This document shows, one piece after another, positions 26,918-52,277 of a DNA stretch of 64,000 bases. Source of the stretch: Odoribacter sp. (GTDB taxonomy: Bacteria; Bacteroidota; Bacteroidia; Bacteroidales; Prolixibacteraceae); assembly GCA_013824715.1 (NCBI GenBank), contig PNOH01000001.1, positions 1-64,000 of the forward strand, written 5' to 3'. Under the pieces are notes generated by a model, which had not been told where the DNA came from, did not search any database, and saw nothing but the letters and a program-made list of their open reading frames with translations. The number at the start of each line of letters is the position of its first letter. Position 1 is the stretch's first letter. Position numbers and translations under genes: made by a program.

Positions 26918-27724
26918 TTAAATGGTGGAGTTGCTGTTCGGTTTGCGGGAATATGACTTTAGCCAATTGTACCACTCGTCCATTCCTTCTCCGGTTTTTG
27001 CTGAAACTTCAAAAAATTCCATTTCAGGATTTAACCTTTTTACCAGATTTTTAGCTTTTTCAATATCAAAATCAACGTAAGGCAAAAGATCTGTTTTGTT
27101 GATTATACAAACATTAGAAGTATGAAAAATGGTTGGATACTTGGCCGGTTTGTCATCCCCTTCCGTCACACTAAAAATGGTCACACGTTTACCTTCCCCC
27201 AAATCGAACATTGACGGGCAAATCAAATTCCCCACATTTTCAATAATCAAAAATGAATGACTTTCAGGGGCCAGTTGTTTGACTGCTTTTTTTACCATGT
27301 CCGCATCCAAATGGCAACCGTTTCCGGTATTTATCTGCACTGCCTCTGCTCCCGCTTTTTGAATGCGTTCGGCATCATTTGCAGTTTGCTGGTCGCCTTC
27401 AATCACATAAAATTTCAGTTGGTCGCCGATTTCAGCAATCGTTCTTTCAATAATGGAAGTTTTGCCCGACCCCGGTGAACTTACCATGTTTATGGCGAAA
27501 ATATCCAGGGCTTCAAAAAATCCCCGGTTGCGTTCTGCCAGCAAATTATTCTTTGAAAGAATGTTAGTTTCAACTGAGATTTCCCGATGCTGGTGTTCGC
27601 CAGGATGATGATGATGATGTGGAACAGTATGGTCATGGGAATGATGGTGATGTTCCAAATAGTCTTGTCCCGGTTTATAAATTCTAACATTGTCGTTTTC
27701 TTCGCAGCCACAAGTATCGCACAT
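26918..27724 (-). CDS. hypB: hydrogenase nickel-incorporation GTPase HypB
   Basis: A 268-residue metallo-GTPase. The N-terminus has MCDTCGCEE (high-affinity metal-site type) and a His-rich nickel-storage stretch (HHHHSHDH, then HHHHHPGEHQH, ~25-47). GTPase motifs are SSPGSGKTS (P-loop), EGDQQT and NKTDLLPY (G4). It delivers Ni to the hydrogenase large-subunit precursor together with HypA. It is last in the hypFCDEAB cluster, 15 bp after hypA. Confidence 0.95.
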   Translation of the reverse strand: MCDTCGCEENDNVRIYKPGQDYLEHHHHSHDHTVPHHHHHPGEHQHREISVETNILSKNNLLAERNRGFFEALDIFAINMVSSPGSGKTSIIERTIAEIGDQLKFYVIEGDQQTANDAERIQKAGAEAVQINTGNGCHLDADMVKKAVKQLAPESHSFLIIENVGNLICPSMFDLGEGKRVTIFSVTEGDDKPAKYPTIFHTSNVCIINKTDLLPYVDFDIEKAKNLVKRLNPEMEFFEVSAKTGEGMDEWYNWLKSYSRKPNSNSTI

Positions 27725-27739
27725 AACTTTTTATTTTTA

Positions 27740-28078
27740 TTATACTGTTAAAGATTTAACCCGCAATTGTTTTCCGTCAATAATTTTCAAAGTACCGCCA
27801 CCACAACCTGGACAAATGGCAAGTAAATCACCGATTTCGAACATGAGATTGCAATCGTTGCATACCGCTTTACCGGGAATTGGGAAAAAGTTTATTTGTG
27901 TTTCGCCCAAAATAGTCCCTTCCACCGTTATTTTCAATGCAAATTCCAAAGCATCCAAAACTACGCCTGACAAAGCGCCAATTTCAATATCGATAGATTG
28001 TATCTGATCTGCCTTCTCCTTCGTTGCAATTTCTTCAGCAATGTCAATAATTGATTGGGCTATTGAGAATTCGTGCAT
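27740..28078 (-). CDS. hypA: hydrogenase maturation nickel chaperone HypA
   Basis: A 112-residue protein beginning MHEFSIAQSI, where His2 is the Ni ligand. The zinc site CNDC with CPGCGG (residues ~74-96) is intact. It hands nickel from HypB to the large subunit. It sits 9 bp after hypE and 15 bp before hypB. Confidence 0.95.
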   Translation of the reverse strand: MHEFSIAQSIIDIAEEIATKEKADQIQSIDIEIGALSGVVLDALEFALKITVEGTILGETQINFFPIPGKAVCNDCNLMFEIGDLLAICPGCGGGTLKIIDGKQLRVKSLTV

Positions 28079-28087
28079 AATTTTCTT

Positions 28088-29104
28088 TTAACAAATTCTG
28101 GGCAATTGGTCGCCCGAAAGCATATCAACAATACGTTTCCCTCCAATTTTAGTCTGCAAAACTACCATTCCCGGGTGTTCACTTACAACCGTCCCAATGA
28201 TAGCAGCATTTTTCCCATACTCGTTCTTCTGTAAATTTAATAAAATTTGAGAGGCATCTTTTTCAGCAACAATAAAAACAATTTTCCCTTCATTGGCCAC
28301 ATATAACGGGTCGAACCCAAAGAACTCACACATTCCGCGTACACTTTCACGAACCGGAATTTGTTCCTCGGTTATCTCAATTCCGAAATTTTTGTTAGTT
28401 GTAATTTCAGCTAAAACAGTTGCCAGTCCGCCACGGGTAGCATCCCGCATAAATTTTATGTTTTCAGAGACTTGTAGCACCCCGTTTACCAAATCATTTA
28501 AAGGGGCACAGTCTGACTCTACCTTTGCGAGAACTTTAAAATCGTTACGGGCGCTCATAACTGCAATTCCATGGTCGGCAATAAATCCGTTTATCAATAT
28601 TTTGTCTCCCGGTTGAATTCCTTCCCCAGAACTTATTTTCCTGTGATGCGGTTTGAGTTTCCCAATTCCTGAAGTATTAATGAAAATTTTATCACATTTC
28701 CCCCGGTTAACTACTTTGGTGTCGCCGGCAACAATTTTAATGTTGGCCTGAATAGCGGTATCTGCCATGCTTTTTACAATTTTTTCGAGGATCTGAAAAT
28801 CCAGTCCTTCTTCTATGATAAAGCCTGCACTAAAAAATTCAGGTGTTGCCCCTGAAACTGCAAGGTCGTTTACAGTGCCGCAAATTGCCAGTTTCCCGAT
28901 ATCTCCGCCCGGGAAAAACAGTGGGTCAACGACATACGAATCGGTTGTAAATGCCAGGTTTTCACTATTCATGACCAACAAGGCAGAATCTCCCCCGGCA
29001 TTCAGGATTTCATTTCCAAAATACCTGAGAAACAATCCCTTTATTAATTCATTACTCCGTTTTCCTCCACTGCCGTGGCTTAATAAAATTGTTCCACTGT
29101 TCAT
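28088..29104 (-). CDS. hypE: hydrogenase maturation protein HypE
   Basis: A 338-residue PurM/ThiL-fold enzyme with LLSHGSGGKRSNELI near the start, AFTTDSYVVDPLFFPGGDIG, and the C-terminal PRIC whose cysteine carries the thiocarboxamide converted to thiocyanate, the cyanide ligand of Ni-Fe sites. It overlaps hypD by four bases, implying translational coupling. Confidence 0.95.
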   Translation of the reverse strand: MNSGTILLSHGSGGKRSNELIKGLFLRYFGNEILNAGGDSALLVMNSENLAFTTDSYVVDPLFFPGGDIGKLAICGTVNDLAVSGATPEFFSAGFIIEEGLDFQILEKIVKSMADTAIQANIKIVAGDTKVVNRGKCDKIFINTSGIGKLKPHHRKISSGEGIQPGDKILINGFIADHGIAVMSARNDFKVLAKVESDCAPLNDLVNGVLQVSENIKFMRDATRGGLATVLAEITTNKNFGIEITEEQIPVRESVRGMCEFFGFDPLYVANEGKIVFIVAEKDASQILLNLQKNEYGKNAAIIGTVVSEHPGMVVLQTKIGGKRIVDMLSGDQLPRIC

Positions 29105-30180
29105 AGTCTGTATTTATAATAAGCCTGACACGATCCTTCTGCCGAAACCATACAAGCGCCCACCGGATTATCCGGGGTACATATTTCCCCAAACAGTTTA
29201 CAGTCGGTCGGAAGTTTTTTCCCCTTCAGGATTTCACCACAAATACACCCTATTGCTTCCTCTGGTTCCGGCAAATTCAAATCAAAATACTTTTCAGCGT
29301 CAAATTCCTCAAACTCCTTTTTGAGCTTTAACCCACTGTTGGGAACCACTCCCAAACCCCGCCACCAATCATCTTTAAGTTCAAAAACTTCGTTTAAAAT
29401 TTTTAAGGCTTTTAGGTTCCCTTGTGGTTTAACTGCCCGTTTGTACTGAATTTCATTCCTTGGTTCTCCCGTTTCATACTGTATAACCAGCATTAAAATT
29501 CCCTGTAACAAATCAACAGGTTCAAAACCTGTGATTACGCAGCCCAGCCTTAATTTCTCAACTATATCATTGTAAATGCCGGAGCCTGTAATTGTACTTA
29601 CATGCCCGGGGCAGATGTACCCGTTTATTTTTACGCCTTCAACGATGAGGGCAGCCATGGCAGGCGGCATAATTTTATGAGCGCTCAACAAGTAAAAATT
29701 ATTGATTTTTTCATTCTTTGCCTGAAGGATGGTTACCGCACTTGCAGGCGAAGTCGTTTCAAAACCGATTCCTAGAAAAACTACTTTTTTCAATGGATTA
29801 TGTTTCGCAATTTCAAGCGCATCCAGCGGGGAATAAATCATTCTGACATCAGCGCTCTTTGCCCGTTCCTTTTCCAAGGTTGAATCTGAACCCGGTACCC
29901 GCAATAAATCGCCGTACGTTGTCAGGATTATATCGTCTTTTTCGGATAGTTTGATGGCTTTGTCTATGAATGATTTGCCGGTAACACAAACGGGGCAACC
30001 GGGACCGCTCAGCAACCGGATGGTTGGCGGAAGCAATGCCGGAATGCCGGATTTACGGATTGCCATAGTATGCCCACCGCAAACTTCCATTAACCGGACA
30101 GGATTTTTGCTTTCCCGGTGAATTGCCTTTACCAATTCGGTAACAGCGCTTTTGTCCCAGTACTCATCAATGTACCTCAT
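29101..30180 (-). CDS. hypD: hydrogenase maturation protein HypD
   Basis: A 359-residue [4Fe-4S] protein on which Fe(CN)2CO assembles with HypC. Hallmarks are MEVCGGHTMAI (~38), SGPGCPVCVT (~70) and the C-terminal cysteines (AIGCICGEILKGKKLPTDC, CTPDNPVGACMVS). It overlaps both hypC and hypE by four bases. Confidence 0.95.
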   Translation of the reverse strand: MRYIDEYWDKSAVTELVKAIHRESKNPVRLMEVCGGHTMAIRKSGIPALLPPTIRLLSGPGCPVCVTGKSFIDKAIKLSEKDDIILTTYGDLLRVPGSDSTLEKERAKSADVRMIYSPLDALEIAKHNPLKKVVFLGIGFETTSPASAVTILQAKNEKINNFYLLSAHKIMPPAMAALIVEGVKINGYICPGHVSTITGSGIYNDIVEKLRLGCVITGFEPVDLLQGILMLVIQYETGEPRNEIQYKRAVKPQGNLKALKILNEVFELKDDWWRGLGVVPNSGLKLKKEFEEFDAEKYFDLNLPEPEEAIGCICGEILKGKKLPTDCKLFGEICTPDNPVGACMVSAEGSCQAYYKYRL

Positions 30181-30401
30181 TCTTTTCCCTTTTGAATTAT
30201 TTCATTAAAAAGTTCCATGGTTTCCCGGGCTTCTTTTTCATCAATTATTTGAATTACAAATCCTGAATGCAATAAAACATAGTCGCCCACTTTTACATTT
30301 TCAACCAGGTCAAGGGCTGCGTTGTATTCTGCACCTCCCAACGAAATGCAGGTTTTCTGACCATCCACTGATAAAACTTTTGCCGGAATACTTAAACACA
30401 T
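30177..30401 (-). CDS. hypC: hydrogenase maturation chaperone HypC
   Basis: A 74-residue β-barrel protein starting MCLSIPAKVLS, whose Cys2 binds the iron and the large-subunit precursor. LLHSGFVIQIIDEKEA is the usual C-terminal helix region. It lies 64 bp downstream of hypF and overlaps hypD by four bases. Confidence 0.95.
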   Translation of the reverse strand: MCLSIPAKVLSVDGQKTCISLGGAEYNAALDLVENVKVGDYVLLHSGFVIQIIDEKEARETMELFNEIIQKGKE

Positions 30402-30465: not shown

Positions 30466-32751
30466 TCAATGAATACTTATTTGATTTAAATTCCTTCTTT
30501 TTGCAGCAATTGCAAGTTGCCCCAGTGAAATTCCTCCATCGTTACAAGGGACCGAGCAGTTTGAAAACACATAGAACCCACATTTCAAAAGATTATTTTC
30601 TGTCCTTTCCAAAAGATACCGGTTTTGAAATGTCCCGCCCGACAAAACCACTTTGTTCAATCCTGTGTTTTTACTTATTTTTTTCACGCCCTCTGCTATA
30701 ATTGATGAAATCGTATTGTGAAATTTTGCTGAAATGATTTCAGTCCCTGTTTTTCGCTGTAAATCACGGACAATTTCCGAAAACATTTCCGAAAATACAA
30801 TGACATCGGACTGTTTGTATGTGTATTTTCTGTTTTCATTTTTTGCTGCAATATTTTCGAGCCGCATGGGCGCTTCAGCTTCAAAGGTAGAATGTGTGCA
30901 AAGATTTAATAGAGCTGAAACTGCATCGAATAACCGTCCGCAACTGCTTGTAAGCGGACAGTTGATGTTTCCATTGATCGCGTTAAAAATCCAGTCAATT
31001 TTTTCATCCGGAATTTTTTCAAGAAAAGGAAGATTAAAATGTAAAAAATCCCGGCCAAAAACTTTATATAACCATGAAACCGCCATCCTCCACGGTTCTT
31101 TGGCCGCCAAATCGCCGCCAGGCATCGGAATATACTCCAAATGAGTAACACGCTGGTAACGATCCAAATCGCAAACCATAAATTCTGAGCCCCAAATATT
31201 CCCGTCATCGCCCAGCCCTGTACCATCGAAACTCACACCAATTACCTTTTCATCTAATCCAAATTCAGCCATGCACGACGCAATGTGGGCGTGGTGGTGC
31301 TGCACAGAAAAAGTTGATAATCCTGAACTTAAAGCGTATTTGGTAGAAAGGTAGTCGGGGTGCAGGTCATGAACTACGATTTCCGGTTTGACCCTGAACA
31401 TTTTTTGAAATTGGATAATACTTTTCTCATAAAAAGAAAAAGTTTCAAAATCTTTTAAATCCCCTATGTGCTGGCTTAAAATTGCCTGGTTCCCCTTTCC
31501 CAGACAGAACGTGTTTTTAAGTTCCGCACCCGTTGCCAGAATTCCGTCAGAATTCCATTTCAAATTCACCGGGTTTGGCGCCCAACCCCTGGAGCGGCGC
31601 ATTATCCGGGGTTTATTACTGACCACCTGTAACACTGAATCGTCGCTTCGGTTATAAATAACCCGGTTGTAAATAACTACCGCATCACATATCGAACCTA
31701 GCTTTTTTTCCGCATCTTTATTTTCAATAATAATGGGTTCATCTTTTAAATTACCGCTGGTAAAAATTATTGCCGGTGTTTTTAATTTTTCAAAAAGCAA
31801 ATAATGAAATGGCATGTATGGAAGTAATGCACCTATTGTATTTATTCCGTTACTAACACCTTCAGGCAACAGGTTTTTAGACCTTAAAATTACAATTGGC
31901 CGTCGCCACGAATCCAGGGTGTCAATTTCTTTTTGATTTGCGGCACAGTATTGGGTTACAGTTTCAAGGTCCCGGAACATAACTGCAAAAGGTTTCCCCT
32001 CCCGTATTTTTATTTTTCTAAGTTGCTGCACGGAATACCCCTGCAAAGCATCACAAGCAATAAAAAATCCCCCGATCCCTTTAATGGCAACAATTTTCCC
32101 TTCTGATAAGTATAGGGCCATGTGTTCAAGAACCTCTTCAAAATTTTCTGTTTTAACATTTTCTGAAATGAACATGTAATTTGGGCCACAGTTCAGGCAG
32201 GCGACCGGTTGTGCATGAAACCTCCGGTTGGTAGGGTTTTCGTATTCCGAAGCACAGGTCGGGCACATTTCAAAAACATCCATTGTTGTTTTATTGCGGT
32301 CGTATGGCAAATTGCGTATGATTGAAAACCGGGGGCCACAATTGGTGCAGTTTGTAAACGGGTAATTTAGCCTATGTGGTTGTTTCCGGATGTCTTCCAG
32401 GCAGTTTGCACAAACCGCAATATCGGGGCCGATTTGTGTAATTTCCTTTTCCTCTGAATATTCATCACTTAAAACAATCTGGAAACCGTTTTTATGTGCC
32501 TGATCTGAAGGTAAAATCAATACATTTTCAATTTGAGCTGCAACAGGGGCATTACTTTTTAAATCCGATATAAAATCGTCAATATCCATCATTTTCCCCG
32601 AGGCTTCAATTAATATCCCTTCGCTTCGGTTTTTTACCCAACCTGAAATATTATTTTTCTGAGCTGCCTGGAAAACAAACGGACGAAATCCTACTCCCTG
32701 AACCAGGCCCTTAATTCGTATTGTAACATGTTCAAGGGTATCTTTTTTCAT
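30466..32751 (-). CDS. hypF: carbamoyltransferase HypF
   Basis: The start at 32751 (MKKDTLEHVTIRIKGLVQG) gives 761 residues, the family length; in-frame sequence upstream does not resemble HypF. Domains in order are acylphosphatase (GLVQGVGFRPFVFQ, ~10-90), two zinc fingers (CANCLEDI, CTNCGPRFS, CPTC, CLNCGPNY), a YrdC-like domain (EGKIVAIKGIGGF, MPFHYLL) and a Kae1-like domain (VQHHHAHIASCMAE, SFDGTGLGDDG). It makes the carbamoyl group transferred to HypE. First gene of the hyp cluster, divergent from the Crp/Fnr gene. Confidence 0.94.
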   Translation of the reverse strand: MKKDTLEHVTIRIKGLVQGVGFRPFVFQAAQKNNISGWVKNRSEGILIEASGKMMDIDDFISDLKSNAPVAAQIENVLILPSDQAHKNGFQIVLSDEYSEEKEITQIGPDIAVCANCLEDIRKQPHRLNYPFTNCTNCGPRFSIIRNLPYDRNKTTMDVFEMCPTCASEYENPTNRRFHAQPVACLNCGPNYMFISENVKTENFEEVLEHMALYLSEGKIVAIKGIGGFFIACDALQGYSVQQLRKIKIREGKPFAVMFRDLETVTQYCAANQKEIDTLDSWRRPIVILRSKNLLPEGVSNGINTIGALLPYMPFHYLLFEKLKTPAIIFTSGNLKDEPIIIENKDAEKKLGSICDAVVIYNRVIYNRSDDSVLQVVSNKPRIMRRSRGWAPNPVNLKWNSDGILATGAELKNTFCLGKGNQAILSQHIGDLKDFETFSFYEKSIIQFQKMFRVKPEIVVHDLHPDYLSTKYALSSGLSTFSVQHHHAHIASCMAEFGLDEKVIGVSFDGTGLGDDGNIWGSEFMVCDLDRYQRVTHLEYIPMPGGDLAAKEPWRMAVSWLYKVFGRDFLHFNLPFLEKIPDEKIDWIFNAINGNINCPLTSSCGRLFDAVSALLNLCTHSTFEAEAPMRLENIAAKNENRKYTYKQSDVIVFSEMFSEIVRDLQRKTGTEIISAKFHNTISSIIAEGVKKISKNTGLNKVVLSGGTFQNRYLLERTENNLLKCGFYVFSNCSVPCNDGGISLGQLAIAAKRRNLNQISIH

Positions 32752-32951
32752 ATTGTTTCGGCAAATAAACTCTGTTAATATCGAAAAATTAAAACAAATA
32801 AAGCTAATATAGCAGAAAAAATTATTTCCCTGTTTTAGCTGTTCCATCATTATAATTGTTAAGGGGGTTGAACGACGGATTTTCATGAATGTTATGAGAT
32901 ATATCCTTCTGCCAAAACCTAAGAGCAATTTCCCCGTAGAAATTCAGTAAT

Positions 32952-32959: not shown

Positions 32960-33012
32960 GTTGTTTTTGCATATCGGTGTCTTGCCGGATTTTCAATTTA
33001 AATAACATACTA

Positions 33013-33720
33013 ATGAAAATTGTCCAGCCGTCTTGTCTTTCCTGCTTAACCAAAGCACTTTCATTCTTCAGTGAATTGGATTCATTTGATTTACTGAATC
33101 TTAGCAATAATAAAATCTGCAATTTCTATAAAAAAGGACATATTGTATTTTACGAAGGAAAAATTCCAACCGGTATTTACTGCCTGGAACAAGGAAAGGT
33201 AAAAATTTACCGGGTTGGCATAGATGGGAAAGAACAAATTGTACGTTTTTCAACTCCAGGGAGTTTCCTTGGTATCCGTTCGTTATTAAGCGAGGAAAGA
33301 TATACCGCTTCGGCCGCAACATTGGAAGATTCGGTGATTTGTTTTATCAATAAATCTTTCTTTTTCCACTTAATCAACAAGTACCCCAAAATGAATGTTG
33401 AAATTGTAGGCTACCTGTGTAAAATGCTTAAAGAAGCCGAGGATAAAATTATTTCGATTGCCCAAAAGCCTGTTAGGGAAAGGTTGGCAGAGTCGTTGTT
33501 AATTCTGAATCACGTTTATAAACCTAATGGGAAGTCCGTGTCTGAACCTAAAATTTTATTGTCCCGCGAAGACCTGGCAAACATTCTTGGGACTGCCACC
33601 GAAACCGTCAGTCGCCTCTTACATGAATTGAAGGATGAAAATCTGATTTCCATCGAGGGCAGGTCAATTACACTTACAGATGTAGAGGGATTAAAACTTA
33701 CCGCAAGGATTTTTGAATGA
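33013..33720 (+). CDS. Crp/Fnr-family regulator of the hydrogenase island
   Basis: From ATG 33013 the protein has 235 residues (an upstream start at 32977 would add 12). A sensory β-barrel (KGHIVFYEGKIPTGIYCLEQ), dimer helix and winged helix (LSREDLANILGTATETVSRLL) are clear, and that recognition helix resembles FNR's TVSR type. Cysteines at 8, 11, 36, 57 and 110 could include an FNR-like oxygen-sensitive cluster (CLSC at the N-terminus). It sits between hypF and the hydrogenase operon and probably controls both, perhaps through the FNR-like site at 33738. Confidence 0.85.
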   Translation: MKIVQPSCLSCLTKALSFFSELDSFDLLNLSNNKICNFYKKGHIVFYEGKIPTGIYCLEQGKVKIYRVGIDGKEQIVRFSTPGSFLGIRSLLSEERYTASAATLEDSVICFINKSFFFHLINKYPKMNVEIVGYLCKMLKEAEDKIISIAQKPVRERLAESLLILNHVYKPNGKSVSEPKILLSREDLANILGTATETVSRLLHELKDENLISIEGRSITLTDVEGLKLTARIFE

Positions 33721-33896: not shown

Positions 33897-35708
33897 ATGA
33901 GTGAAAATGATTTAACTGGTATCTTTTTTTACCATCCTGGTAACGGGCATGTAAGCAACCTGGATTTCGAAGAATTGATTCAATTTTCAGGTACATTTAA
34001 ACATGTTGCGGTAGTTTGGGATTCGGAAAAATTTCCTCTGTGGGATAAAAAAAATCTCGAATCGGAAATTCGGAAATTTAATCTGAATCGTTTAGTCATT
34101 GCAGGTTATGACACCGGAATGATTAAACCGTTCTTTGCCATGGTATTTTCAACTCTGGGAATCCCGGTTGAAAATATCTTGCTTGCTGATTTTATGGAAC
34201 ATGGTGCGTTGGATAAAAGCTATACTGATCTGGCAAAAGCAATTGTGGTTTGTGGCATTTATAATGTTCCGTTTGAAGATGCTGCAAAGCCTGGTGAATC
34301 AGACGTATGCCCCGATACGCTTGTTATTGGCGGAGGAATTGCAGGAATTGAGGCTTCATTGGAAATTGCAAACGGCAATCAAAAAGTTTATCTGGTTGAA
34401 AAAACCGGGACAATTGGCGGCCACATGGCGATGTTCGATAAAACCTTTCCCACGTTGGATTGTGCAGCCTGCATTTTAACACCTAAGATGGTGGACGTAG
34501 GGCAACATCCCAAGATCGATCTGATGACCTATAGTGAAGTAAAGAGTATTGAAGGTCATCCCGGATGTTACAAAGTAAAAATCCTGAAAAAAGCCCGCAG
34601 GGTTGATCTCTCTAAATGCATTGGATGCGGAACCTGCTCAGAAAAATGCCCAGGCAAAACGTATAGCGAATTCGATCAGGGAACAACACTTCGAACGGCT
34701 ATTTACAGGCCATTTCCTCAGGCAGTGCCAAACAAGTATCTGATTGATGCCGAAAGTTGCCGTTATGTACAAGGGGAAAAGTGTGGCGTTTGTGTCAAAG
34801 TTTGCCCTGTTCCCGATTGTATCAATTTAGATGCAAAAGATGAAGAAGTTGAAATTACCATTGGAAATATTATTGTTGCTACCGGGTTCAAAGTTTTCGA
34901 TGCCAAACGGGCCGCGCAGTTTGGTTATGGGAAATACCCAAATGTTTTAACCTCACTTGAATTTGAACGCTTAATTAATGCTGCCGGGCCAACCGGAGGT
35001 AACATCACCTACCGGAACAAGGACAAAAAAGGCAATTGGGTTTTCACAACAGGCGCAGATGTCCCTGATTCTGTAGCTATTATCCATTGTATTGGTAGCC
35101 GCGACGAAAATTACAATGCTTATTGCTCAAAGGTTTGTTGTATGTATTCACTGAAACTTGCCCATTTGGTGAAGGAGAAATTGCCAGAGGCCGAGGTTTA
35201 CGAGCATTATATCGACATGCGGGCATTTGGGAAAGGGTACGAAGAATTTTACGAACGGATTAGAAATGAAGGAATTCATATCATCCGGGGACGCACTGCA
35301 ACCGTGAAATCAATTAATGGTGGATTAATAATTCGAAGCGAAGATATTGAAAGCGGCAGGCTGTTGGATCAGAAAGTTGAAATGGTAATCCTGGCAGTAG
35401 GTATGGAACCTACCGATGATGCAAGATCACTGGCTGGAATGCTGGGGATTGAAGTTGATAAATATGGGTGGATGAGTGGAATTAACAACATCAGTGATTC
35501 TGTAAATACACGCTCCGGAGGAGTGGCAATTGCTGGCACATGCCAGGGGCCAAAAGATATTCCTGACACCGTTGTACAGGCATCGGCAGCAGCATCCCGT
35601 GTTTTGCAAAACATTATAAAAGGTAAGGCTTCCAACGGGATTTCAAGCTTGTCTTTTTCTGATATCGAAAAAAGGGCAAAGGAACTTTCAACCATAAAAG
35701 AAATATAG
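33897..35708 (+). CDS. HdrA-like flavoprotein 1 (QmoA-like)
   Basis: A 603-residue HdrA paralogue, first gene of the hydrogenase operon. Residues ~1-135 keep the shape of the HdrA N-terminal domain but lack its cluster cysteines. The FAD fold starts at VIGGGIAGIEAS (143-154). LDCAACILTPKM (C189, C192) and C398/C410/C414/C415 are the canonical HdrA sites. An inserted ferredoxin domain binds two [4Fe-4S] clusters (CIGCGTCSEKC 241-251, and C288, C296, C299, C303). There is no C-terminal ferredoxin domain. It should pass electrons between the hydrogenase module and the membrane subunit. The next gene follows after 2 bp. Confidence 0.87.
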   Translation: MSENDLTGIFFYHPGNGHVSNLDFEELIQFSGTFKHVAVVWDSEKFPLWDKKNLESEIRKFNLNRLVIAGYDTGMIKPFFAMVFSTLGIPVENILLADFMEHGALDKSYTDLAKAIVVCGIYNVPFEDAAKPGESDVCPDTLVIGGGIAGIEASLEIANGNQKVYLVEKTGTIGGHMAMFDKTFPTLDCAACILTPKMVDVGQHPKIDLMTYSEVKSIEGHPGCYKVKILKKARRVDLSKCIGCGTCSEKCPGKTYSEFDQGTTLRTAIYRPFPQAVPNKYLIDAESCRYVQGEKCGVCVKVCPVPDCINLDAKDEEVEITIGNIIVATGFKVFDAKRAAQFGYGKYPNVLTSLEFERLINAAGPTGGNITYRNKDKKGNWVFTTGADVPDSVAIIHCIGSRDENYNAYCSKVCCMYSLKLAHLVKEKLPEAEVYEHYIDMRAFGKGYEEFYERIRNEGIHIIRGRTATVKSINGGLIIRSEDIESGRLLDQKVEMVILAVGMEPTDDARSLAGMLGIEVDKYGWMSGINNISDSVNTRSGGVAIAGTCQGPKDIPDTVVQASAAASRVLQNIIKGKASNGISSLSFSDIEKRAKELSTIKEI

Positions 35709-35710
35709 CC

Positions 35711-36901
35711 ATGGCAACAAGAGTGGACCCAAATTTTATGCAAAGCCTCGAAAAATTTGGGGTTAAAGACTGGAAAGGCTGCTTTCACTGTGGTAATTGT
35801 ACGGCGAGTTGCCCACTCATTGAAGAGGAGTACCAGTTCCCCCGGAAAGTGATACGCCAGGCACAAATGGGATTAAAAGATAGACTGGAAAGTAATATCG
35901 ATTTATGGATGTGTTATTTCTGTGGAGATTGTACCAAAACCTGCCCCCGGGAAGCCAATCCGTGCGAATTGATGCGTTCTATCCGGCGGTACCAGATATC
36001 AGCTTATGATTGGACCGGATTATCTAAAAAGTTCTTTACCTCACAAAAATGGGAACTTTCCTTTTTTTTCGGAATTGCCATTCTGATTTTAATCCTTTTT
36101 GCCATTTTCCTTCCACCTTCCCCTGAACTATGGACAAATCCCACACGGTTTATCAACGAACAGGGCGGGGTTATGATAAATAATATGGTGGACGGAATTT
36201 CCGGAGAAAAGTTTTTATACATTATACATTATGGCGACTGGATTATGGCATTTGTCGCTGGCGGGCTTTTAATAACCAACATCCTGCACATGTTCTACCT
36301 TACACTTTGGAGAGATAAAAGTGTTCAAATACCATTTTATGCCTATTTCACCCAATTATGGAAACTGATTTACCACTTTGCCACTCAGCCGAAACTCAGA
36401 AAATGCGACGACAAACTGTACTGGCTTGGACATATGGTCTTTATGACAGGTTATACCATAATGTTTGTATTAATTGTGGGCATGCTACCCCGATTTCAAA
36501 TTGAAGAAGTTGTTCCGTGGTACAACTGGCAAAGAATTCTTGGGTACTACGCAACCATTGGGATTATTGTATTCCTCATCCCTGTGGTAATCGGGCGGTT
36601 CAGAAAAAACAAGTGCAAACTCAAGTATTCGCATTTTACCGACTGGCATTTTATCATTATGCTCATCCTGACCACAATCTCCGGAATATTAATACACATT
36701 TTTCGCCTGGCCGGAATGCCCGTTGCAACCTATTTTTCGTATGTAATTCATCTGGCCATTCTTGTCCCGATGATTATGATAGAAGTTCCGTTCTCGAAAT
36801 GGTCGCATCTGGCTTATCGCCCGTTTGCGATTTATATTGCTGCATTGAAAAAAGCAGTTGTTAAAAAGAAACAACCTGAGCAAGTGCCGGTATTTGCCTA
36901 A
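35711..36901 (+). CDS. HdrC-cytochrome b fusion (QmoC-like membrane subunit)
   Basis: A 396-residue protein. Residues 1-95 are HdrC-like, with CFHCGNCTASC (24-34) and CYFCGDCTKTC (68-78) for two [4Fe-4S] clusters and an extra Cys85. The remainder has about six membrane segments, the first at ~108-130. Histidines in YGDWIMAFVAGGLLITNILH, LGHMVFMTGYTIMF, DWHFIIMLILTTISG and YVIHLAILVPM, plus SKWSHLAYRPFA, fit the HdrE/DsrM/QmoC haem-b family. There is no HdrB-type CCG domain. It most likely exchanges electrons with menaquinone. Confidence 0.88.
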   Translation: MATRVDPNFMQSLEKFGVKDWKGCFHCGNCTASCPLIEEEYQFPRKVIRQAQMGLKDRLESNIDLWMCYFCGDCTKTCPREANPCELMRSIRRYQISAYDWTGLSKKFFTSQKWELSFFFGIAILILILFAIFLPPSPELWTNPTRFINEQGGVMINNMVDGISGEKFLYIIHYGDWIMAFVAGGLLITNILHMFYLTLWRDKSVQIPFYAYFTQLWKLIYHFATQPKLRKCDDKLYWLGHMVFMTGYTIMFVLIVGMLPRFQIEEVVPWYNWQRILGYYATIGIIVFLIPVVIGRFRKNKCKLKYSHFTDWHFIIMLILTTISGILIHIFRLAGMPVATYFSYVIHLAILVPMIMIEVPFSKWSHLAYRPFAIYIAALKKAVVKKKQPEQVPVFA

Positions 36902-36912
36902 TATTTATACCT

Positions 36913-38658
36913 ATGGAAGAAATAAGAATAGGAGTATATGTTTGCTGGTGCGGAACCAATATTTCAAAAATGGTTGATGTTGAGGATGTTGCCAGGGAAA
37001 TTGAAACATTGCCTTATGTTGTGGTTGCCCGCGATTACAAATACATGTGTTCCGATCCGGGACAGGACTTGATAATCAACGATATAAAAAAACACAAATT
37101 AAACCGGATCGTAGTTTCAGCATGCTCGCCCAGAATTCATGAATTAACATTCAGAAAAGCGCTGGAAAATGCCGGATTAAATCCGTATATGTTTGAAATG
37201 GCAAATATCCGTGAGCACGTCTCGTGGGTGCATACCAGCAGGGAAGATGCCACCAAAAAAGCCAAAGCGCTTGTAGCAGGGGCAGTTAGCCGGGTCCGTT
37301 GGCACAATTCTCTGGATAAACGTTTCGTGGAAATAAATCCGGCAACTTTAATTATTGGAGGTGGGATTTCAGGAATTTCAGCAGCGCTTGAAATTGCTGA
37401 TTCGGGCAAGCAGGTTTATCTCATTGAAAAAACCGGGCAATTGGGAGGTTTCGCGGCAAAAATAGACCTCTCCTCTCCCTTTATGTACAGCGCTCCACAA
37501 ATGATTAATCCTAAAATTGACAAGATATTCAAACATCCCCAAATCACGGTTTTTCTAAATACCCAGGTGGAAGAGATGAGCGGATACTATGGAAATTTTA
37601 CAACCAAAATTAAAACGGAAGAAGATCATGAGGTTGAATTAAAATTTGGAAACATCATTCTGGCAATCGGGTTAAGCACTTTCGACCCTTCAGTAATTGA
37701 AAACTACAAATACGGAAAAATCCCGGATGTTATTACTTCACTCGAATTTGAACAGTACTTAATATCAGGAAAGATCTTAAGAAAAGACGGGAGTGTTCCC
37801 AAAAATGTGGCAATTATTCACTGCGTAGGAAGCCGTAATTCAAACTATCATGATTATTGTTCGCGGCTTTGCTGCAAGAATGCCTTGAAATATTCGAACC
37901 TGATCCGTGCTGCAATTCCTGATGCCAATATTTTTGAATTGTATTCCGACATGCGCGCCATGGGCGATGGTTGCGAAGAACTGTATTCGGCCACCTCGCG
38001 CAAGAATGTAATGTTTTTAATGTTCGATCAAAAAAACGGCATGCCCGACATCAGGGAAGCATCATCAGATGACAATTGTAAGATGGTAATTGAAATGGAT
38101 GAAAAACTTTCGGGTGAACGCGTTGAAATACCTGCTGATCTGGTCATTCTAATGGTGGCCATAGAAGCGCAAAAAGAAGCTAAAAAACTGGCACAAGCTA
38201 TCGGAATAAGCATGTGTGGAAACCAGTTTTTCATTGAGCGTCATCCAAAACTCGACCCCGTTGCGACTACTACTGATGGCGTATATATTGTTGGAAGTTG
38301 CCAGGCGCCCAAAGGCATCCCCCATTCGGTGGCCCAGGCAAGGGCCGCAACTGCACGGATTCTGGCCAGAATAAACGTTGGGCACGTTGAAGTGGAAGCT
38401 GCTACGGCCAAAGTAAATGAAGATATTTGCTGCGGATGCCAAACCTGCATCAGCATTTGCCCATATTCTGCAATTAGCCTCGACGAAGAAAAACAGGTGT
38501 CGGTTGTAAACGAGGTTCTATGCAAAGGCTGCGGAACCTGTTGCTCGGCCTGCCCAAACGGGGCTATCCGGGCACAACATTTTACCGACACACAAATTCT
38601 TTCCCAAATAGATGGATTACTTGAAAAATCACTTCAACTTCAGGAGGGTTTACTATGA
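36913..38658 (+). CDS. HdrA-like flavoprotein 2
   Basis: A 581-residue HdrA paralogue with the opposite cofactor set from the first. The N-terminal domain keeps its cysteines ([10 protein letters not shown]11/C13, C46, ACSPRIHE C71). FAD binding is [14 protein letters not shown] (147-160). The central CxxC site is replaced by [14 protein letters not shown], and the inserted ferredoxin domain is absent (sequence passes directly to [13 protein letters not shown]). C304/C316/C320/C321 remain, and a C-terminal ferredoxin domain is present ([10 protein letters not shown] ~507-516, [11 protein letters not shown] 537-547). It overlaps mvhD by four bases, so it probably docks the hydrogenase module. 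Confidence 0.87.
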
Positions 38659-39080
38659 ATTTCGAACCAACCATAATATCGTTTTTATGCAACTGGTGCT
38701 CATACACCGGCGCCGATTTAGCCGGAACTGCACGGATGAAGTACGCACCCAATATCCGTATTATACGCCTGATGTGTTCCGGCAGGGTAGATCCGACTTT
38801 TGTGCTGGAATCGTTTAAGAAAGGCGCCGATGGGGTTCTGATCTGTGGGTGTCATCCTGGTGATTGCCATTATCACGAGGGAAATTACAAATGCCTGCGC
38901 AGATACCATTTCCTCAAAAAATATATTACGCAATTAGGCATTGAACCGGAACGATTGCATTTGGAATGGATCAGTGCAAGCGAAGGGAAACAATTTGCGG
39001 AATTGATTAACTCATTTACTGAAACAATCAGGGAATTGGGCCCTAGTAAAATTAAAAATGTGATTGAAACTTATACATAG
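38655..39080 (+). CDS. mvhD: MvhD-type [2Fe-2S] electron-transfer subunit
   Basis: A 141-residue MvhD/FlpD protein that connects the hydrogenase to HdrA. Cysteines C12, C15, C41, C64, C66, C71 and C80 ([33 protein letters not shown]) match the family. ATGA couples it to the upstream HdrA-like gene. CAGGAGGG precedes the start, an unusually strong Shine-Dalgarno sequence for Bacteroidota. Confidence 0.92.
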
Positions 39081-39090
39081 GAGATTGATT

Positions 39091-40071
39091 ATGTCTGAAG
39101 AAGAAAATAAACCAAAACTAAAACTCGCGGTTTACTGGGGGGCCGCTTGCGGAGGGTGTTGTGTTTCAGTACTCGATGTCCATGAAAAATTGTTCGATGT
39201 TGTGGCTAATGCCGATCTGGTTTTCTGGCCTATCGCCCTTGATATTAAATATGCTGATGTTGAAGCAATGCCGGATGGGTACATCGATTTAACCTTATTT
39301 AATGGTGCAATTCGAAATAGTGAGAACAAACATATGGCAAAACTTCTGCGTCAAAAAACAAAGGTTCTGGTTGCTTACGGATCGTGTTCGTATATGGGTG
39401 GAATTCCTGGCCTGGCTAACCTAAATACCAAAGAGGATATCTTTGAGCGGATTTACAACGAAACCGAATCAACAATTAATCCGGAAAATATCAGGCCACA
39501 GGAAAGATATGAAGTGGATGAAGGAGTTTTGACCTTACCTGAATTTTATAATGATGTGAGGACATTGAGCCAGACGGTTGACGTTGATTACTACCTTCCA
39601 GGCTGCCCGCCTCAAACAGAACGGTTACTTGAGGTTTTCACGGCAATTGTAACAGGCCTTGGACTCCCTCCGAAGGGTTCAGTTATCGGCGCTGCCGAGA
39701 AATCGCAATGCGATGAGTGTACCAGGAAAAAAACCGAAAACAAACTTATTAAAAAGTTCTACCGACCTTGGGAAATTGTGGATGACGGGGAAACCTGCTT
39801 TCTGGAACAAGGAGTGATTTGCATGGGGCCAGCTACACGTTGTGGTTGTGGTAACCGGTGTATCATGGGGAATGCCCCTTGCCGCGGATGTTATGGCCCG
39901 GCTCCCGATGTCATTGACCCGGGTGCAAAAATGATGTCTGCTGTGGCAACAATGATCGATGCCAACGATGCCAATGAAATCGAAAAAATTATGGAAGATA
40001 TCATTGATCCGGCAGGGTACTTTTACAGGTATAGTTTGCCAGCTTCAATTTTAAGGAGGAAAATGAGATGA
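39091..40071 (+). CDS. mvhG: group 3c [NiFe] hydrogenase small subunit (MvhG-like)
   Basis: The start at 39091 (MSEEENKPKLKLAVYW) gives 326 residues. A TAGGAG lies 9 bp upstream, favouring it over the in-frame start at 39064. GAACGGCCVSVLD, AYGSCSYMGG and LPGCPPQ hold the proximal cluster. The C-terminal region has many cysteines (CDECTRKK, CFLEQGVICMGPATRCGCG, CRGCYGP) for further clusters. No Tat signal, so the enzyme is cytoplasmic-side. It overlaps the large-subunit gene by ATGA. Confidence 0.92.
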   Translation: MSEEENKPKLKLAVYWGAACGGCCVSVLDVHEKLFDVVANADLVFWPIALDIKYADVEAMPDGYIDLTLFNGAIRNSENKHMAKLLRQKTKVLVAYGSCSYMGGIPGLANLNTKEDIFERIYNETESTINPENIRPQERYEVDEGVLTLPEFYNDVRTLSQTVDVDYYLPGCPPQTERLLEVFTAIVTGLGLPPKGSVIGAAEKSQCDECTRKKTENKLIKKFYRPWEIVDDGETCFLEQGVICMGPATRCGCGNRCIMGNAPCRGCYGPAPDVIDPGAKMMSAVATMIDANDANEIEKIMEDIIDPAGYFYRYSLPASILRRKMR

Positions 40072-41531
40072 GAAGAATTACAATAGACCCGATTACACGT
40101 TTGGAAGGTCATGGTAAAATTGAAATTTTCCTCAACGATGAGGGGGATGTGGATAATGTTTATTTTCAGGTTCCTGAATTGAGGGGCTTTGAAAAATTTT
40201 GTGAAGGCAGGCCGGTTGAGGAACTTTCTCAGATTGTAACAAAAATTTGCGGAGTTTGCCCTGGTTGCCACCACATGGCAGCAGGCAAAGCAATTGACGC
40301 AGTTTTTGGGGTGGAACCTCCGCCAACTGCAAAAAAATTGCGCGAACTGTTTTACATGGCACATTTTGTACACAGCCACATCGCTCACTTTTACGCATTG
40401 GCTGCCCCTGATTTTGTTGTTGGTCCTACTGCTGCAAAAGCCGAAAGGAATATCCTTGGCGTAATCAATAAAGTAGGTGTAGATATTGGAACCGAAGTAA
40501 TTAAGCAACGCCGCATTGCCCAGGAGATTCAGGCTTTGCTGGGTGGTCATCAAACACATGTGGTTATGAACATTCCGGGTGGGGTGAGAAAAGGACTGAC
40601 CGGGGAGCAACGCGCCGACATTGAAGTAAAAGCGAAAGGATTTATTGATTTTTCCAAATTCTCGCTTAAAATTTTCTATGATATTGTGCTAGAGAATAAA
40701 GAATATGTGGATTTGATTTTGAACGGACCCTATGCATTGAAATTATACTCTATGGGTTTAGTTGACGAAAACAATAAAGTTAATTTCTACGATGGGAAAG
40801 TCAGGGTAGTTGATACTGCAGGAGAAGAGCATTGTAAATATTCTCCTGACAAATACCGCGAATTTATAGCCGAACGGGTTGAACCCTGGAGTTACCTCAA
40901 ATTTCCGTACTTAAAAAAAATAGGCTGGAAAGGTTTTGTTGAGGGCCAGGATTCGGGAATTTATCATGCAACACCTCTGTCCAGATTAAATGCTTCAGAT
41001 GGAATGGCCACCCCTCTTGCGCATGCTGAATACGAAAAAATGTATGGTATTTTAGGAGGGAAGCCTGTTCATGCCACACTGGCAATGCATTGGGCCCGCC
41101 TTATTGAATTACTTTATGCAAGCGAACGTTTGCTTGAACTGGCCACTGATCCTGATATAACAGGGAAAGAGTTAAGATCGCCGCTGCCAAATATCCCAAA
41201 CGAAGGTGTGGGCATTGTTGAGGCGCAGCGTGGGACACTTACTCACCATTACGTAACAGATGATAAGGGGATTGTTCAGAAAGTGAACATTATTGTTGGA
41301 ACAACCAACAATAATGCAGCCATTTGTATGTCACTTAAAAAAGCTGCCCAGAGGTTTATTAAAAAAGGGGTGGAAGTAAATGATGGCATCCTGAATATGA
41401 TTGAAATGGCATTTCGCGCTTATGATCCGTGTTTTTCATGTGCTACCCACAGCCTGCCCGGTGAAATGCCAATGATTTTAAATATTCATGAACCTGATGG
41501 TACATTGATCCGCACCCTGCAGCGAAAATAA
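40068..41531 (+). CDS. mvhA: group 3c [NiFe] hydrogenase large subunit (MvhA-like)
   Basis: A 487-residue catalytic subunit. The L1 motif is KICGVCPGCHH (C61, C64) and the L2 motif DPCFSCATH (C455, C458), the four Ni-Fe ligands. A 26-residue tail after H461 is the segment removed by the maturation protease. ITRLEGHGKIEI at the N-terminus and overall layout match the methyl-viologen-reducing Mvh class (group 3c). TTAAGGAGG lies 7 bp upstream. With MvhG and MvhD it forms the H2-reacting module of the Hdr/Qmo-like complex. Confidence 0.93.
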   Translation: MRRITIDPITRLEGHGKIEIFLNDEGDVDNVYFQVPELRGFEKFCEGRPVEELSQIVTKICGVCPGCHHMAAGKAIDAVFGVEPPPTAKKLRELFYMAHFVHSHIAHFYALAAPDFVVGPTAAKAERNILGVINKVGVDIGTEVIKQRRIAQEIQALLGGHQTHVVMNIPGGVRKGLTGEQRADIEVKAKGFIDFSKFSLKIFYDIVLENKEYVDLILNGPYALKLYSMGLVDENNKVNFYDGKVRVVDTAGEEHCKYSPDKYREFIAERVEPWSYLKFPYLKKIGWKGFVEGQDSGIYHATPLSRLNASDGMATPLAHAEYEKMYGILGGKPVHATLAMHWARLIELLYASERLLELATDPDITGKELRSPLPNIPNEGVGIVEAQRGTLTHHYVTDDKGIVQKVNIIVGTTNNNAAICMSLKKAAQRFIKKGVEVNDGILNMIEMAFRAYDPCFSCATHSLPGEMPMILNIHEPDGTLIRTLQRK

Positions 41532-41555
41532 CCATGGATTCGTCAAAAAAACAGG

Positions 41556-42065
41556 ATGGGCAAGAAAACCAATACGTTGATAATAGGCATTGGAAACGAT
41601 ATTTTAACCGATGATGGAGTTGGTCCAAGGTTGTGTGATTTTTTAAAGGAAGAATTTAAAAACACGTCGGTTAATTTTGAAAAATTGAATGTAGGCGGAC
41701 TGGAAGTATTAGAATTTATCCAGGGTTACCAAACAGTAATATTCATTGATGCGATTAAAACACATGACGGACGGGTAGGAGATGTGTATCTTTTTACACC
41801 CGGCGATTTCAGGGAAACACTGCACCTCTCAAACCTGCACGACACCAGTTTTTTAACAGCCCTGAAATTGGGCGGTTTAATAGGTTTTAAAATACCTGAA
41901 AGGATGTATATTATTGCAGTGGAAATTAAAGAAGATATGGTATTTTCTGAACACTTTACTGATGACCTGGCTTGCAAGTATAAAGAAATTAAGAACGAAG
42001 TAGTTGCCATCATAAATAGGTTAATTCCACAAGAGGTAAACCCTTCTGACATTTCCCCCTCATAA
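41556..42065 (+). CDS. [NiFe] hydrogenase maturation endopeptidase
   Basis: A 169-residue HycI/HupD-family protease. IIGIGNDILTDDGVGPRL (Asp/Glu metal ligand) opens the fold, and IFIDAIKT and HLSNLHDTSFLTAL carry the second Asp and the His. It should clip the C-terminal tail of the large subunit once nickel is in place. It starts 24 bp after that gene and closes the operon. Confidence 0.92.
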   Translation: MGKKTNTLIIGIGNDILTDDGVGPRLCDFLKEEFKNTSVNFEKLNVGGLEVLEFIQGYQTVIFIDAIKTHDGRVGDVYLFTPGDFRETLHLSNLHDTSFLTALKLGGLIGFKIPERMYIIAVEIKEDMVFSEHFTDDLACKYKEIKNEVVAIINRLIPQEVNPSDISPS

Positions 42066-46394: not shown

Positions 46395-47975
46395 TTATTT
46401 TAGATTATTTGTAAATATACTGAAATTTTGCAAAGGTAAATCTTTTTCTGATATTTTATGAGTCGTTGAATCAATTGAGATTAAATGGTTTGAATAGGCT
46501 GAAATTAGTAGTGGTTTAAGAAAGGAAGTATTAGCCTCAGTAGCATCCAGAAGTATTAAACCATTTGCTAAATGATCTTTAATTAACTTTTTAGTCGAGA
46601 TTTCTCCAACCCATATAAATTTTGGCATCGGTTTTTCAAGTATAAGTTGTTTGATTTCATCTGAAAAAGTTTGATTAAATCTTAATTTATCTTTGTAGGA
46701 ACGACTTGAGGTCAGATAAAAGCGCAAATAAAATTCTAATCCATCAGGAACATCAAGATAATTGAATATGAATTTCCGGCAAAAATTCTTTGCTTCAAAA
46801 GCCTCCAAATAAATTTTAGAATAAAGAGGAACAATGAAATGGGTTATCTCACAATTTTTGAAACTGGGTTGAGTATAGCCACCAACAGGATTCTCAAAAA
46901 GCAGTTGCTGATATACTGGCCTATTGTCATCAATAAAAACAAATTTCTTTTCAACATCATCGTTGTCGTAGAATGAAGTGTTATTTGACTTATAATAGTC
47001 TGAATACTTTGTTTCTGTGATTTTTATTTCTTCTAGCAAAAAATACTTTTCCTCAATTTTTGATTCTTTAAGAAAATCAACTTTATCCTCAGTTACTTTA
47101 TTGTGCCCGATACAGATTACTGCATGTGCGGTAGTTCCTTTATACTTGCGGTTATCTATTCCGACAATTAATGGAAGGCCACTTTCAATATAACAACTAA
47201 ACAATCGGCTAAATTCAAGATTACCAAATTCATTTCGTGAATAAAGCTTCGTTCCAAATCCAAATTCTCTTAAGGCATAGGATATCTGATCTACATTTAG
47301 CCCTTTCGAAGGCAATTGTCGTTCGGTTGAAACACCTCTTAATACTTCAATTATTCTTGAAGGTAAAACCGGGCTGTACTCGGCATACCTATGGCTAAAA
47401 TACTCCATTGTGGCCCACAAAGTAGTTTCTGCGCAGGATATGGTCTCTGCATCTTGCGATGAATAAGGAAATCCTTCAATGTCAAGTTTAATTGAATTTA
47501 CTGTAGTTGAAAACTTCGCCATACATGAAATAAAACCATTGTCTTTTAACGCTTTGGGGGAGATTATGCTACGTCCTATTATGTTTGAAATAGTTGGGCG
47601 AAGTACCATAAAACCTAAGAAATTGCTTTGCAAATGTTCTTTGTCAATATTGTATTTGAAATCTATGTCGGTTTTGCCTTTGAAATCTATGTCGGTTATA
47701 TTACCATTGAAGAAAGATAGCCGAATGCAATCCCTGAAATAATTATCCAACTTCGAAGAGAAATAGTAGTAATAGCTGTTTCGATAAACCTTATCAACGT
47801 AAGGAAATTCTACTACAATTGACAAAGAATCTTTTAGCTGATCGATATGAAATGTTAGTTGATCTTCGATCACTTTTTGCGCCAATACTTCATTGACCTC
47901 CAGAAGATTTTGAATGTCATTTATGATTCGCTTATGAAATTCATTCTTGCTTACAATATAACTTTTAATGTCCAT
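46395..47975 (-). CDS. papain-like (C39-like) cysteine protease in a defence-type operon
   Basis: A 526-residue protein. The papain-fold residues are Gln174 and Cys181 (SSQDAETISCAETTLW) and His284 (TTAHAVICIGH), with an Asp in FIDDNRP as a candidate third residue. The N-terminal ~165 residues form a helical then mixed domain of unknown type. There is no signal peptide or membrane span, so it acts in the cytoplasm. A 24-bp near-duplication encodes DIDFKGKTDIDFK at ~96-108. It follows the methylase gene by 27 bp. A cytosolic protease downstream of a nuclease-methylase suggests an effector or regulator; target unknown. Confidence 0.7.
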   Translation of the reverse strand: MDIKSYIVSKNEFHKRIINDIQNLLEVNEVLAQKVIEDQLTFHIDQLKDSLSIVVEFPYVDKVYRNSYYYYFSSKLDNYFRDCIRLSFFNGNITDIDFKGKTDIDFKYNIDKEHLQSNFLGFMVLRPTISNIIGRSIISPKALKDNGFISCMAKFSTTVNSIKLDIEGFPYSSQDAETISCAETTLWATMEYFSHRYAEYSPVLPSRIIEVLRGVSTERQLPSKGLNVDQISYALREFGFGTKLYSRNEFGNLEFSRLFSCYIESGLPLIVGIDNRKYKGTTAHAVICIGHNKVTEDKVDFLKESKIEEKYFLLEEIKITETKYSDYYKSNNTSFYDNDDVEKKFVFIDDNRPVYQQLLFENPVGGYTQPSFKNCEITHFIVPLYSKIYLEAFEAKNFCRKFIFNYLDVPDGLEFYLRFYLTSSRSYKDKLRFNQTFSDEIKQLILEKPMPKFIWVGEISTKKLIKDHLANGLILLDATEANTSFLKPLLISAYSNHLISIDSTTHKISEKDLPLQNFSIFTNNLK

Positions 47976-48002
47976 TTTCAGTGGTATTTAGTTAGAATAG
48001 GC

Positions 48003-52265: not shown

Positions 52266-52277
52266 GAGGTTTAGCGG

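Follow-up and report, generated by a model that had tools for sequence, protein, structure and literature searches.

The first 64,000 nucleotides of contig PNOH01000001.1 of Odoribacter sp. (assembly GCA_013824715.1), hereafter called the window and used for all coordinates that carry no other label, contain a compact operon of seven genes on the + strand (33897-42065), in which a group 3c-type [NiFe] hydrogenase is encoded together with two HdrA-like flavoproteins and a membrane protein. Neighbouring genes overlap or stand 2, 11 or 24 bases apart, and encode in order the HdrA-like flavoprotein A1 (33897..35708, 603 aa), the protein C, which joins an HdrC domain to a cytochrome b-like membrane domain (35711..36901, 396 aa), the second HdrA-like flavoprotein A2 (36913..38658, 581 aa), the iron-sulfur protein MvhD or FlpD (38655..39080, PF02662), the hydrogenase small subunit MvhG (open frame 39064..40071, matched by the VhuG profile below its cut-off), the large subunit MvhA with a C-terminal extension (40068..41531) and a HycI-type maturation protease (41556..42065, above the TIGR00072 cut-off). 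For MvhG, an ATG near 39091 is likelier to be the start than the beginning of the open frame. Both A1 (E 2.6e-158) and A2 (E 4.2e-171) match the HdrA2 profile NF040770 under its cut-off of 1100 bits, C matches the qmoC profile NF038018 with 192.6 bits (E 1.3e-56) under a cut-off of 300 bits, and MvhA scores 364.3 bits against the VhuA equivalog, the cut-off of which is 800. The motifs of MvhA, ICGVCPGCH at residue 60 and RAYDPCFSCATH around residue 453, fit the L1 (ICGxCxxxH) and L2 (AYDPCxxCATH) signatures of group 3c hydrogenases (PMC6085437), the usual partners of which, MvhD and MvhG, are both present in the operon. Among solved structures, those closest to A1, A2, MvhD, MvhG, MvhA and the HdrC portion of C are chains of methanogen Mvh-Hdr, Elp-Hdr and Fdh-Hdr complexes. 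Five queries of the HdrB/LutA type produced zero matches across the window at E 1e-3. The architecture of the A1-C-A2-MvhDGA operon is thus well supported, and the preliminary description of this locus, which had reported these seven genes, the combination of a group 3c hydrogenase and a membrane protein resembling QmoC, and the lack of HdrB, is borne out in these respects.

The distinctive feature of the operon lies in the way the two flavoproteins share the metal ligands of a canonical HdrA. A1 retains the FAD domain, Cys189 and Cys192 (equivalent to Cys194 and Cys197 of Mt HdrA), the inserted ferredoxin domain with its eight Cys and the cluster of the TrxR domain; its N-terminal domain is present without cluster Cys and the C-terminal ferredoxin is absent. 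A2 has the N-terminal cluster residues Cys 11, 13, 46 and 71, the FAD domain and the C-terminal dicluster ferredoxin (motifs at 506 and 537), and lacks the inserted ferredoxin as well as the Cys194/197 pair. The same division is found in related sequences (columns numbered on the HdrA of 5odc; rows covering most of the protein, fragments excluded and window rows counted). Among the A1 rows, C194, C197 and the eight Cys of the inserted ferredoxin occur in 50/50, and C13, C46, C71 and the C-terminal ferredoxin Cys in 0/50, with C11 remaining in 24/50. Among the A2 rows, C11, C13 and C46 are present in 54/56, C71 in 55/56 and the eight C-terminal ferredoxin Cys in 56/56, with C194, C197 and the Cys of the inserted domain in 0/56. 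Four Cys of the TrxR domain, E356 and K409 are found in every row of both proteins, and A1 and A2 rows occur together in 47 sources, including the window. This pattern provides good support for a feature that the preliminary description missed, although it had correctly recognised two HdrA proteins: A1 and A2 appear to be complementary halves that divide one HdrA cluster set. Given that Cys197 ligates the N-terminal cluster of the partner HdrA in the methanogen structure, the pattern implies an obligate heterodimer, and we consider this A1-A2 signature well supported by the alignments.

A natural counterpart of such pairing is found in locus L172 (genome G319, same phylum but another family), where an A1-like half is followed by an A2-like half in one protein of 1490 aa, neighboured by a QmoC-like protein, MvhD, MvhG and an MvhA 45% identical to that of the window (the small gene in the place of the protease gave no protease match). 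Similar fused HdrA proteins lie beside MvhD and MvhG in L174 and L175, the former having also MvhA.

The operon is not peculiar to the window. Scanning genome contigs with MvhA yielded at least 588 stretches, at least 560 of which encode a relative; the best 80 loci, used throughout, belong to Bacteroidota in 71 cases, the other nine being L019, L028, L065, L085 and L090-L094. Full flanks, defined as at least 6.5 kb upstream and at least 6 kb downstream, are available for 32/80 loci. The window's order A1-C-A2-D-G-A (type I) is seen in 20/32 of these, and the order D-G-A-A1-C-A2 (type II) in 9/32, so that A1-C-A2 adjoins MvhDGA in 29/32; the canonical order HdrC-HdrB-HdrA-D-G-A with a single HdrA (type III) accounts for 2/32, and only G-A was detected with these queries in the remaining locus, L092 of Bacillota. 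When short contigs are included, the 80 loci comprise 33 complete type I, 16 complete type II, 6 type III and 25 cut, partial or unclassified cases. Such repetition of gene order across contigs is far beyond chance. In type I as in type II loci, A1 and A2 flank C, and the single HdrA of type III loci has all ligands intact in 5/5 cases. (Of note, locus L173, at G058:C35:1-20000, carries a type I and a type II complex back to back, with different C subunits in one genome.)

At the level of the order, an A2-like protein (E 1e-130) is found in 26/393 genomes sampled and 22/207 genera, the window's genome included, two of these genomes, G522 and G658, having two A2 copies each. The system recurs across Bacteroidales and cannot be called rare, a point that the preliminary description had missed. 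Within its genus, the window's MvhA occurs in 1/23 genomes, namely its own, and is absent from 22 congeners, three of which show weak partial matches in a different large-subunit frame. On these two distributions the operon is patchy and accessory, and its transfer is likely. A phylum-wide HdrA search (395 genomes, 74 matching at E 1e-60, the window's included) was not used as a count of the complex, because many of the matches listed break near residue 236, which is the pattern expected of single HdrAs that carry an inserted domain.

The membrane subunit C has two motifs of the CxxCxxCxxxCP type (residues 24 and 68) in its HdrC domain and six hydrophobic stretches in its membrane domain. All 55 aligned rows, QmoC included, have Cys232, His241, His347 and His366, and the spacing of His347 and His366 presumably resembles that of NarI. 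The AlphaFold2 model obtained with this alignment places the HdrC domain on a helical bundle (mean pLDDT 87.4, pTM 0.86), and Foldseek searches with it retrieve HdrC chains and EtfD at the top and NarI at rank 10. A subdivision of C into two kinds according to His173/His222 versus Glu/Asn was considered and dropped, for the 55 rows contain 20 H/H, 16 E/N and 19 in ten other combinations. In one locus, L016 (C at L016:5589-6737), C is only 47% identical to the window's protein and groups with that of L028 (98 aLRT), whereas A1 and A2 are 81% identical, a single case suggesting the replacement of C within a conserved operon.

The association of the hydrogenase with A1-C-A2 can be examined also in its own phylogeny. 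A quick tree was built from 70 MvhA rows. In it, the five type III rows of Bacteroidota (one of which, L070, lies on a short contig and was typed by its single HdrA alone) form a clade (96 aLRT) that is nested in a set of type I rows (support 81-90, unstarred). Read literally, this would mean that a single lineage of the hydrogenase has been joined to both soluble HdrCBA and A1-C-A2, which makes this topology the best sequence argument for A1-C-A2 being the partner of the hydrogenase. HdrB/LutA-type queries, five in number, match all 6 type III loci and 0/74 of the others, including 0/29 of the full-flank A1-C-A2 loci, many of the 74 being cut contigs and a very divergent CCG protein being able to escape such a scan.

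We then considered the relationship with Qmo. In L170, a QmoC above the family cut-off adjoins QmoB-like and QmoA-like proteins, two further proteins being suggestive of AprA and AprB by size and place; QmoC was found at 496-502 bits in 3/13 genomes searched. The nine genes scanned at the window's operon gave no apr match, and no genome-wide aprAB search was made. With Cys197 and the inserted ferredoxin, the L170 QmoA falls on the same side of the split as A1, and QmoB, with N-terminal Cys, C-terminal ferredoxin and a fused MvhD-like domain, on the side of A2. A second Qmo-like set (L171:5574-10207) contains a QmoA-like protein, a QmoB-like protein without MvhD domain and with Ala at the K409 position, a 104-aa protein and a QmoC-like protein, and sits in a genome that bears also a fused-HdrA hydrogenase. 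The tree of the HdrA core was built with 58 sequences, among which these two sets alone represent Qmo; the short HdrA of contig C26 and both halves of L176 were left out, a half-protein of the latter having occupied a branch of 6.2 in the first tree. A1 and A2 each form one clade (100/98 each), and A1 joins A2 with the L171 QmoB and the C-halves of fused proteins (75/96). AU tests reject a clade of A1, QmoA and N-halves (p 0.015) and one of A2, QmoB and C-halves (p 0.028), are borderline for the narrower grouping of A1, L171 QmoA-like and N-halves (p 0.054) and do not reject all six groups together (p 0.125). We lean towards a parallel origin of the A1/A2 and QmoA/QmoB splits, and go no further because Qmo is represented by few rows with long branches. 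The 'Qmo-type' label of the preliminary description holds for layout more than for any demonstrated descent, and we do not regard the operon as a true member of QmoABC, given that C lies under the QmoC cut-off and the trees incline against a simple common ancestry.

On the basis of these results we propose that the seven genes would give rise to one membrane-anchored complex. MvhAG would oxidise H2 on the cytoplasmic side, and MvhD would pass the electrons to the A1-A2 heterodimer. In the Elp-Hdr structure an MvhD-like arm of one HdrA serves the FAD in the other; electrons of high potential then move onward via cluster HA4', and those of low potential via the C-terminal shuttle cluster to HA5' (PMC12350162). 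By analogy, a mobile arm formed by MvhD and the C-terminal ferredoxin of A2 would serve the FAD of A1, from which high-potential electrons could follow the TrxR-domain cluster, the HdrC domain of C and its heme(s) b to menaquinone, and low-potential electrons could leave through the inserted ferredoxin domain of A1 to soluble ferredoxin. Since A1 is devoid of the C-terminal arm and A2 of the inserted ferredoxin, such a dimer would have one complete bifurcating path, not two. An H2:quinone complex built around the A1-A2 heterodimer, be it bifurcating or not, is in our view probable, and H2:menaquinone oxidoreduction, already favoured in the preliminary description, is its likely and likeliest function; the physical assembly, the menaquinone acceptor and the direction of H2 uptake are all predicted from sequence. 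For bifurcation to ferredoxin as such we see about even odds. The complete proposal, namely a one-sided, symmetry-broken bifurcating hydrogenase that would send H2 electrons to membrane menaquinone and to ferredoxin via one FAD path, with quinone replacing the heterodisulfide, is tentative and falls somewhat short of an even chance.

The energetics were calculated with potentials of -414 mV for H2, -74 mV for menaquinone and -450 to -500 mV for ferredoxin (PMC9304861, PMC10734219). Bifurcation would release -49 to -59 kJ per 2 H2 at 1 bar, -15 to -24 kJ at 1e-3 bar and -3 to -13 kJ at 1e-4 bar. The genome offers possible quinol sinks, namely NarGH, which exceeds its cut-offs, and a Mo-enzyme of Phs/Psr-like type that has an NrfD-like subunit and stays below them. 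Two [FeFe] hydrogenases of group A6 type, above cut-off and one of them beside a NuoF-like subunit (C7:92703-101851, L112), could act as an internal source of H2.

Several observations weigh against the bifurcating, quinone-linked complex. Bifurcation would gain next to nothing, or even cost energy, at 1e-5 bar H2 (-1.5 to +8.1 kJ per 2 H2), and a search of the genome found no RnfC above cut-off. QmoA, too, retains the inserted ferredoxin, and bifurcation or confurcation by Qmo itself is only a proposal. The three invariant His are the only ones in C, so two bis-His hemes are not secured, and the Foldseek matches of C are all weak (best E 0.029, NarI E 0.57, none below 0.001). The nesting in the MvhA tree depends on unstarred branches, the starred ones alone not forcing it, and the HdrA fusions of L174 and L175 show no C match in the stretch read, L174 starting at a contig end.

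Some of these points would suit a plain H2:menaquinone oxidoreductase without bifurcation, in which the inserted ferredoxin is a mere wire or docking site. H2-to-menaquinone transfer is strongly exergonic by itself (-37 to -66 kJ per H2, calculated), the lack of a detected RnfC fits it as well, and the Moorella MetFV-HdrABC-MvhD complex gave no ferredoxin reduction when assayed (PMC8578096). However, the invariance of the eight inserted-ferredoxin Cys, E356 and K409 throughout the 50 A1 rows is hard to explain without a ferredoxin path, and we hold plain transfer to be a serious contender that nevertheless has clearly less than an even chance. The complex might instead work in fermentation as a confurcating producer of H2, co-oxidising menaquinol and reduced ferredoxin, much as confurcation has been put forward for Qmo (PMC10553843, PMC3949148); by calculation, very low H2 makes the reaction favourable, but the genome already holds the two [FeFe] hydrogenases and its respiratory nitrate reductase would consume quinol, which renders this alternative unlikely.

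Two further alternatives were weighed. HdrC normally passes electrons to HdrB, and the acceptor docking at its face could accordingly be some disulfide or a thiol of a protein, C serving merely as a membrane anchor; however, neither the window nor any of the 29 A1-C-A2 loci with full flanks gave an HdrB-type match, and the cytochrome b-like bundle of C carries three invariant His, so we judge a thiol acceptor very unlikely. Alternatively, HdrB could be encoded elsewhere. The six CCG matches in the genome correspond to four genes, all on contigs other than the window's: an HdrB-like gene (354 aa), a 613-aa DsrK/HdrD-like gene, an LdhH/LutA-like gene and a GlcD-type fusion. In the C26 cluster (C26:31971-37550, equivalent to L109:5972-11551, in the window's own genome), HdrC (243 aa), the 354-aa HdrB and a short HdrA (340 aa) are followed by a small ferredoxin-like frame and the 613-aa CCG protein with hydrophobic N-terminus, a set that may resemble sulfur-linked Hdr sets. 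The preliminary description had singled out an HdrB elsewhere completing a soluble HdrABC as a challenge to its reading, and an HdrB-like CCG gene does exist on C26, but it tracks the genus, being found in 19/23 genomes, the window's included, 18 of which are without the window's MvhA. A soluble Mvh-Hdr complex using this HdrB (and HdrC), with C alone or with another partner, was therefore set aside as the least probable reading of all: hdrABC need not adjoin mvh (PMC6085437), yet the C26 cluster has its own short HdrA, C keeps its place between A1 and A2 in both locus types, and an HdrB match lies within the locus in 6/6 single-HdrA loci as opposed to none of the full-flank A1-C-A2 loci.

The surroundings of the operon contain genes of related function. 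A Crp/Fnr-family regulator recognised by its family profile (32977..33720, + strand) lies directly upstream of A1 and is likely to be a local regulator of the operon; a Crp match immediately precedes A1 in 18/80 retrieved loci. Hydrogenase maturation genes follow on the - strand further upstream: HypF (30466..32928, the listed start of which is probably too long) and HypD (29101..30180), both named from sequence and having homologues that adjoin the operon in relatives, as well as HypC (30177..30401), HypE (28088..29104), HypA (27740..28078) and HypB (26918..27724), named by family assignment. Elsewhere in the window, a three-gene block on the - strand (46395-55559) looks like a restriction or defence island and encodes a 526-aa protein without Pfam or PADLOC match, a 1420-aa Eco57I-type methylase with a Schlafen/AlbA_2 domain and a 1093-aa PLD-Snf2 helicase; an odd fusion of a NapC/NirT-type cytochrome domain with an FGE-sulfatase-like domain is found in a 517-aa protein at 8889-10442.

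Mvh-type hydrogenases are best known from methanogens. If the proposed quinone-linked complex is real, group 3c hydrogenases would deliver electrons to the quinone pool of many anaerobic Bacteroidota, so that their role in metagenomes may be misread, HydDB listing the group as linked to heterodisulfide reductase (PMC5037454). H2 would then feed respiration, and strongly reducing electrons might also result. Moreover, A1/A2 would represent a natural asymmetric HdrA that isolates one bifurcation path, making the electron route via HdrA (and Qmo) testable without a second identical half. The open-licence PMC text searched, in the excerpts available, contains no description of the A1-C-A2-MvhDGA composition.

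The work of Appel et al. (2021) on HdrA(BC) modules, cited in PMC10553843, may extend to related complexes. EtfABCX takes electrons from NADH, not from H2, and its proteins are unrelated to the HdrA-hydrogenase set. It is nevertheless similar in having menaquinone as the high-potential acceptor of a bifurcating flavoenzyme (PMC10734219), a role that in the case of A1-C-A2 is a proposal. The tandem HdrAs of ANME archaea were inferred to be heterodimeric by Chadwick et al. (PMC9012536), and the tandem or fused HdrAs of these archaea and of Moorella share with A1/A2 the complementarity of Cys197 and N-terminal cluster; their partners, in contrast, are FdhAB-like proteins, HdrBC and MetFV/MvhD, with no mention of a 3c hydrogenase with a QmoC-like subunit in the excerpts of that article. 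A group 3c hydrogenase without HdrB, or with a Qmo-type HdrA, is hinted at by Ca. Symbiobacter mobilis, which has an Mvh hydrogenase without HdrBC (PMC4053972), and by the Mvh:Hdl of Archaeoglobus with its suggested pairing of Mvh and QmoB (PMC3949148), although a membrane subunit linked to quinone and encoded in the same operon is not described in the parts of these sources at hand; a further related hint is found in PMC5317091. The complex shares with HdrABC-MvhADG, the H2:CoB-CoM heterodisulfide, ferredoxin reductase (5odc and relatives), the subunits MvhA, MvhG and MvhD, the HdrA fold and cluster inventory, the HdrC domain and the Mvh L1/L2 motifs, but one homodimeric HdrA is replaced in it by two complementary ones, its HdrC continues into a cytochrome b-like membrane domain, and its operon has no HdrB. 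With QmoABC it has in common the cluster split of A1/A2, which is that of QmoA/QmoB, and in C the HdrC-membrane layout, Cys232 and the three invariant His; it differs in having hydrogenase genes in place of the link to APS reductase, MvhD as a separate gene, an A1 that retains the N-terminal domain without cluster Cys, and a C below the QmoC cut-off. If the bifurcating reading holds, H2-driven, quinone-coupled bifurcation by HdrA may have been reached in parallel with Qmo.

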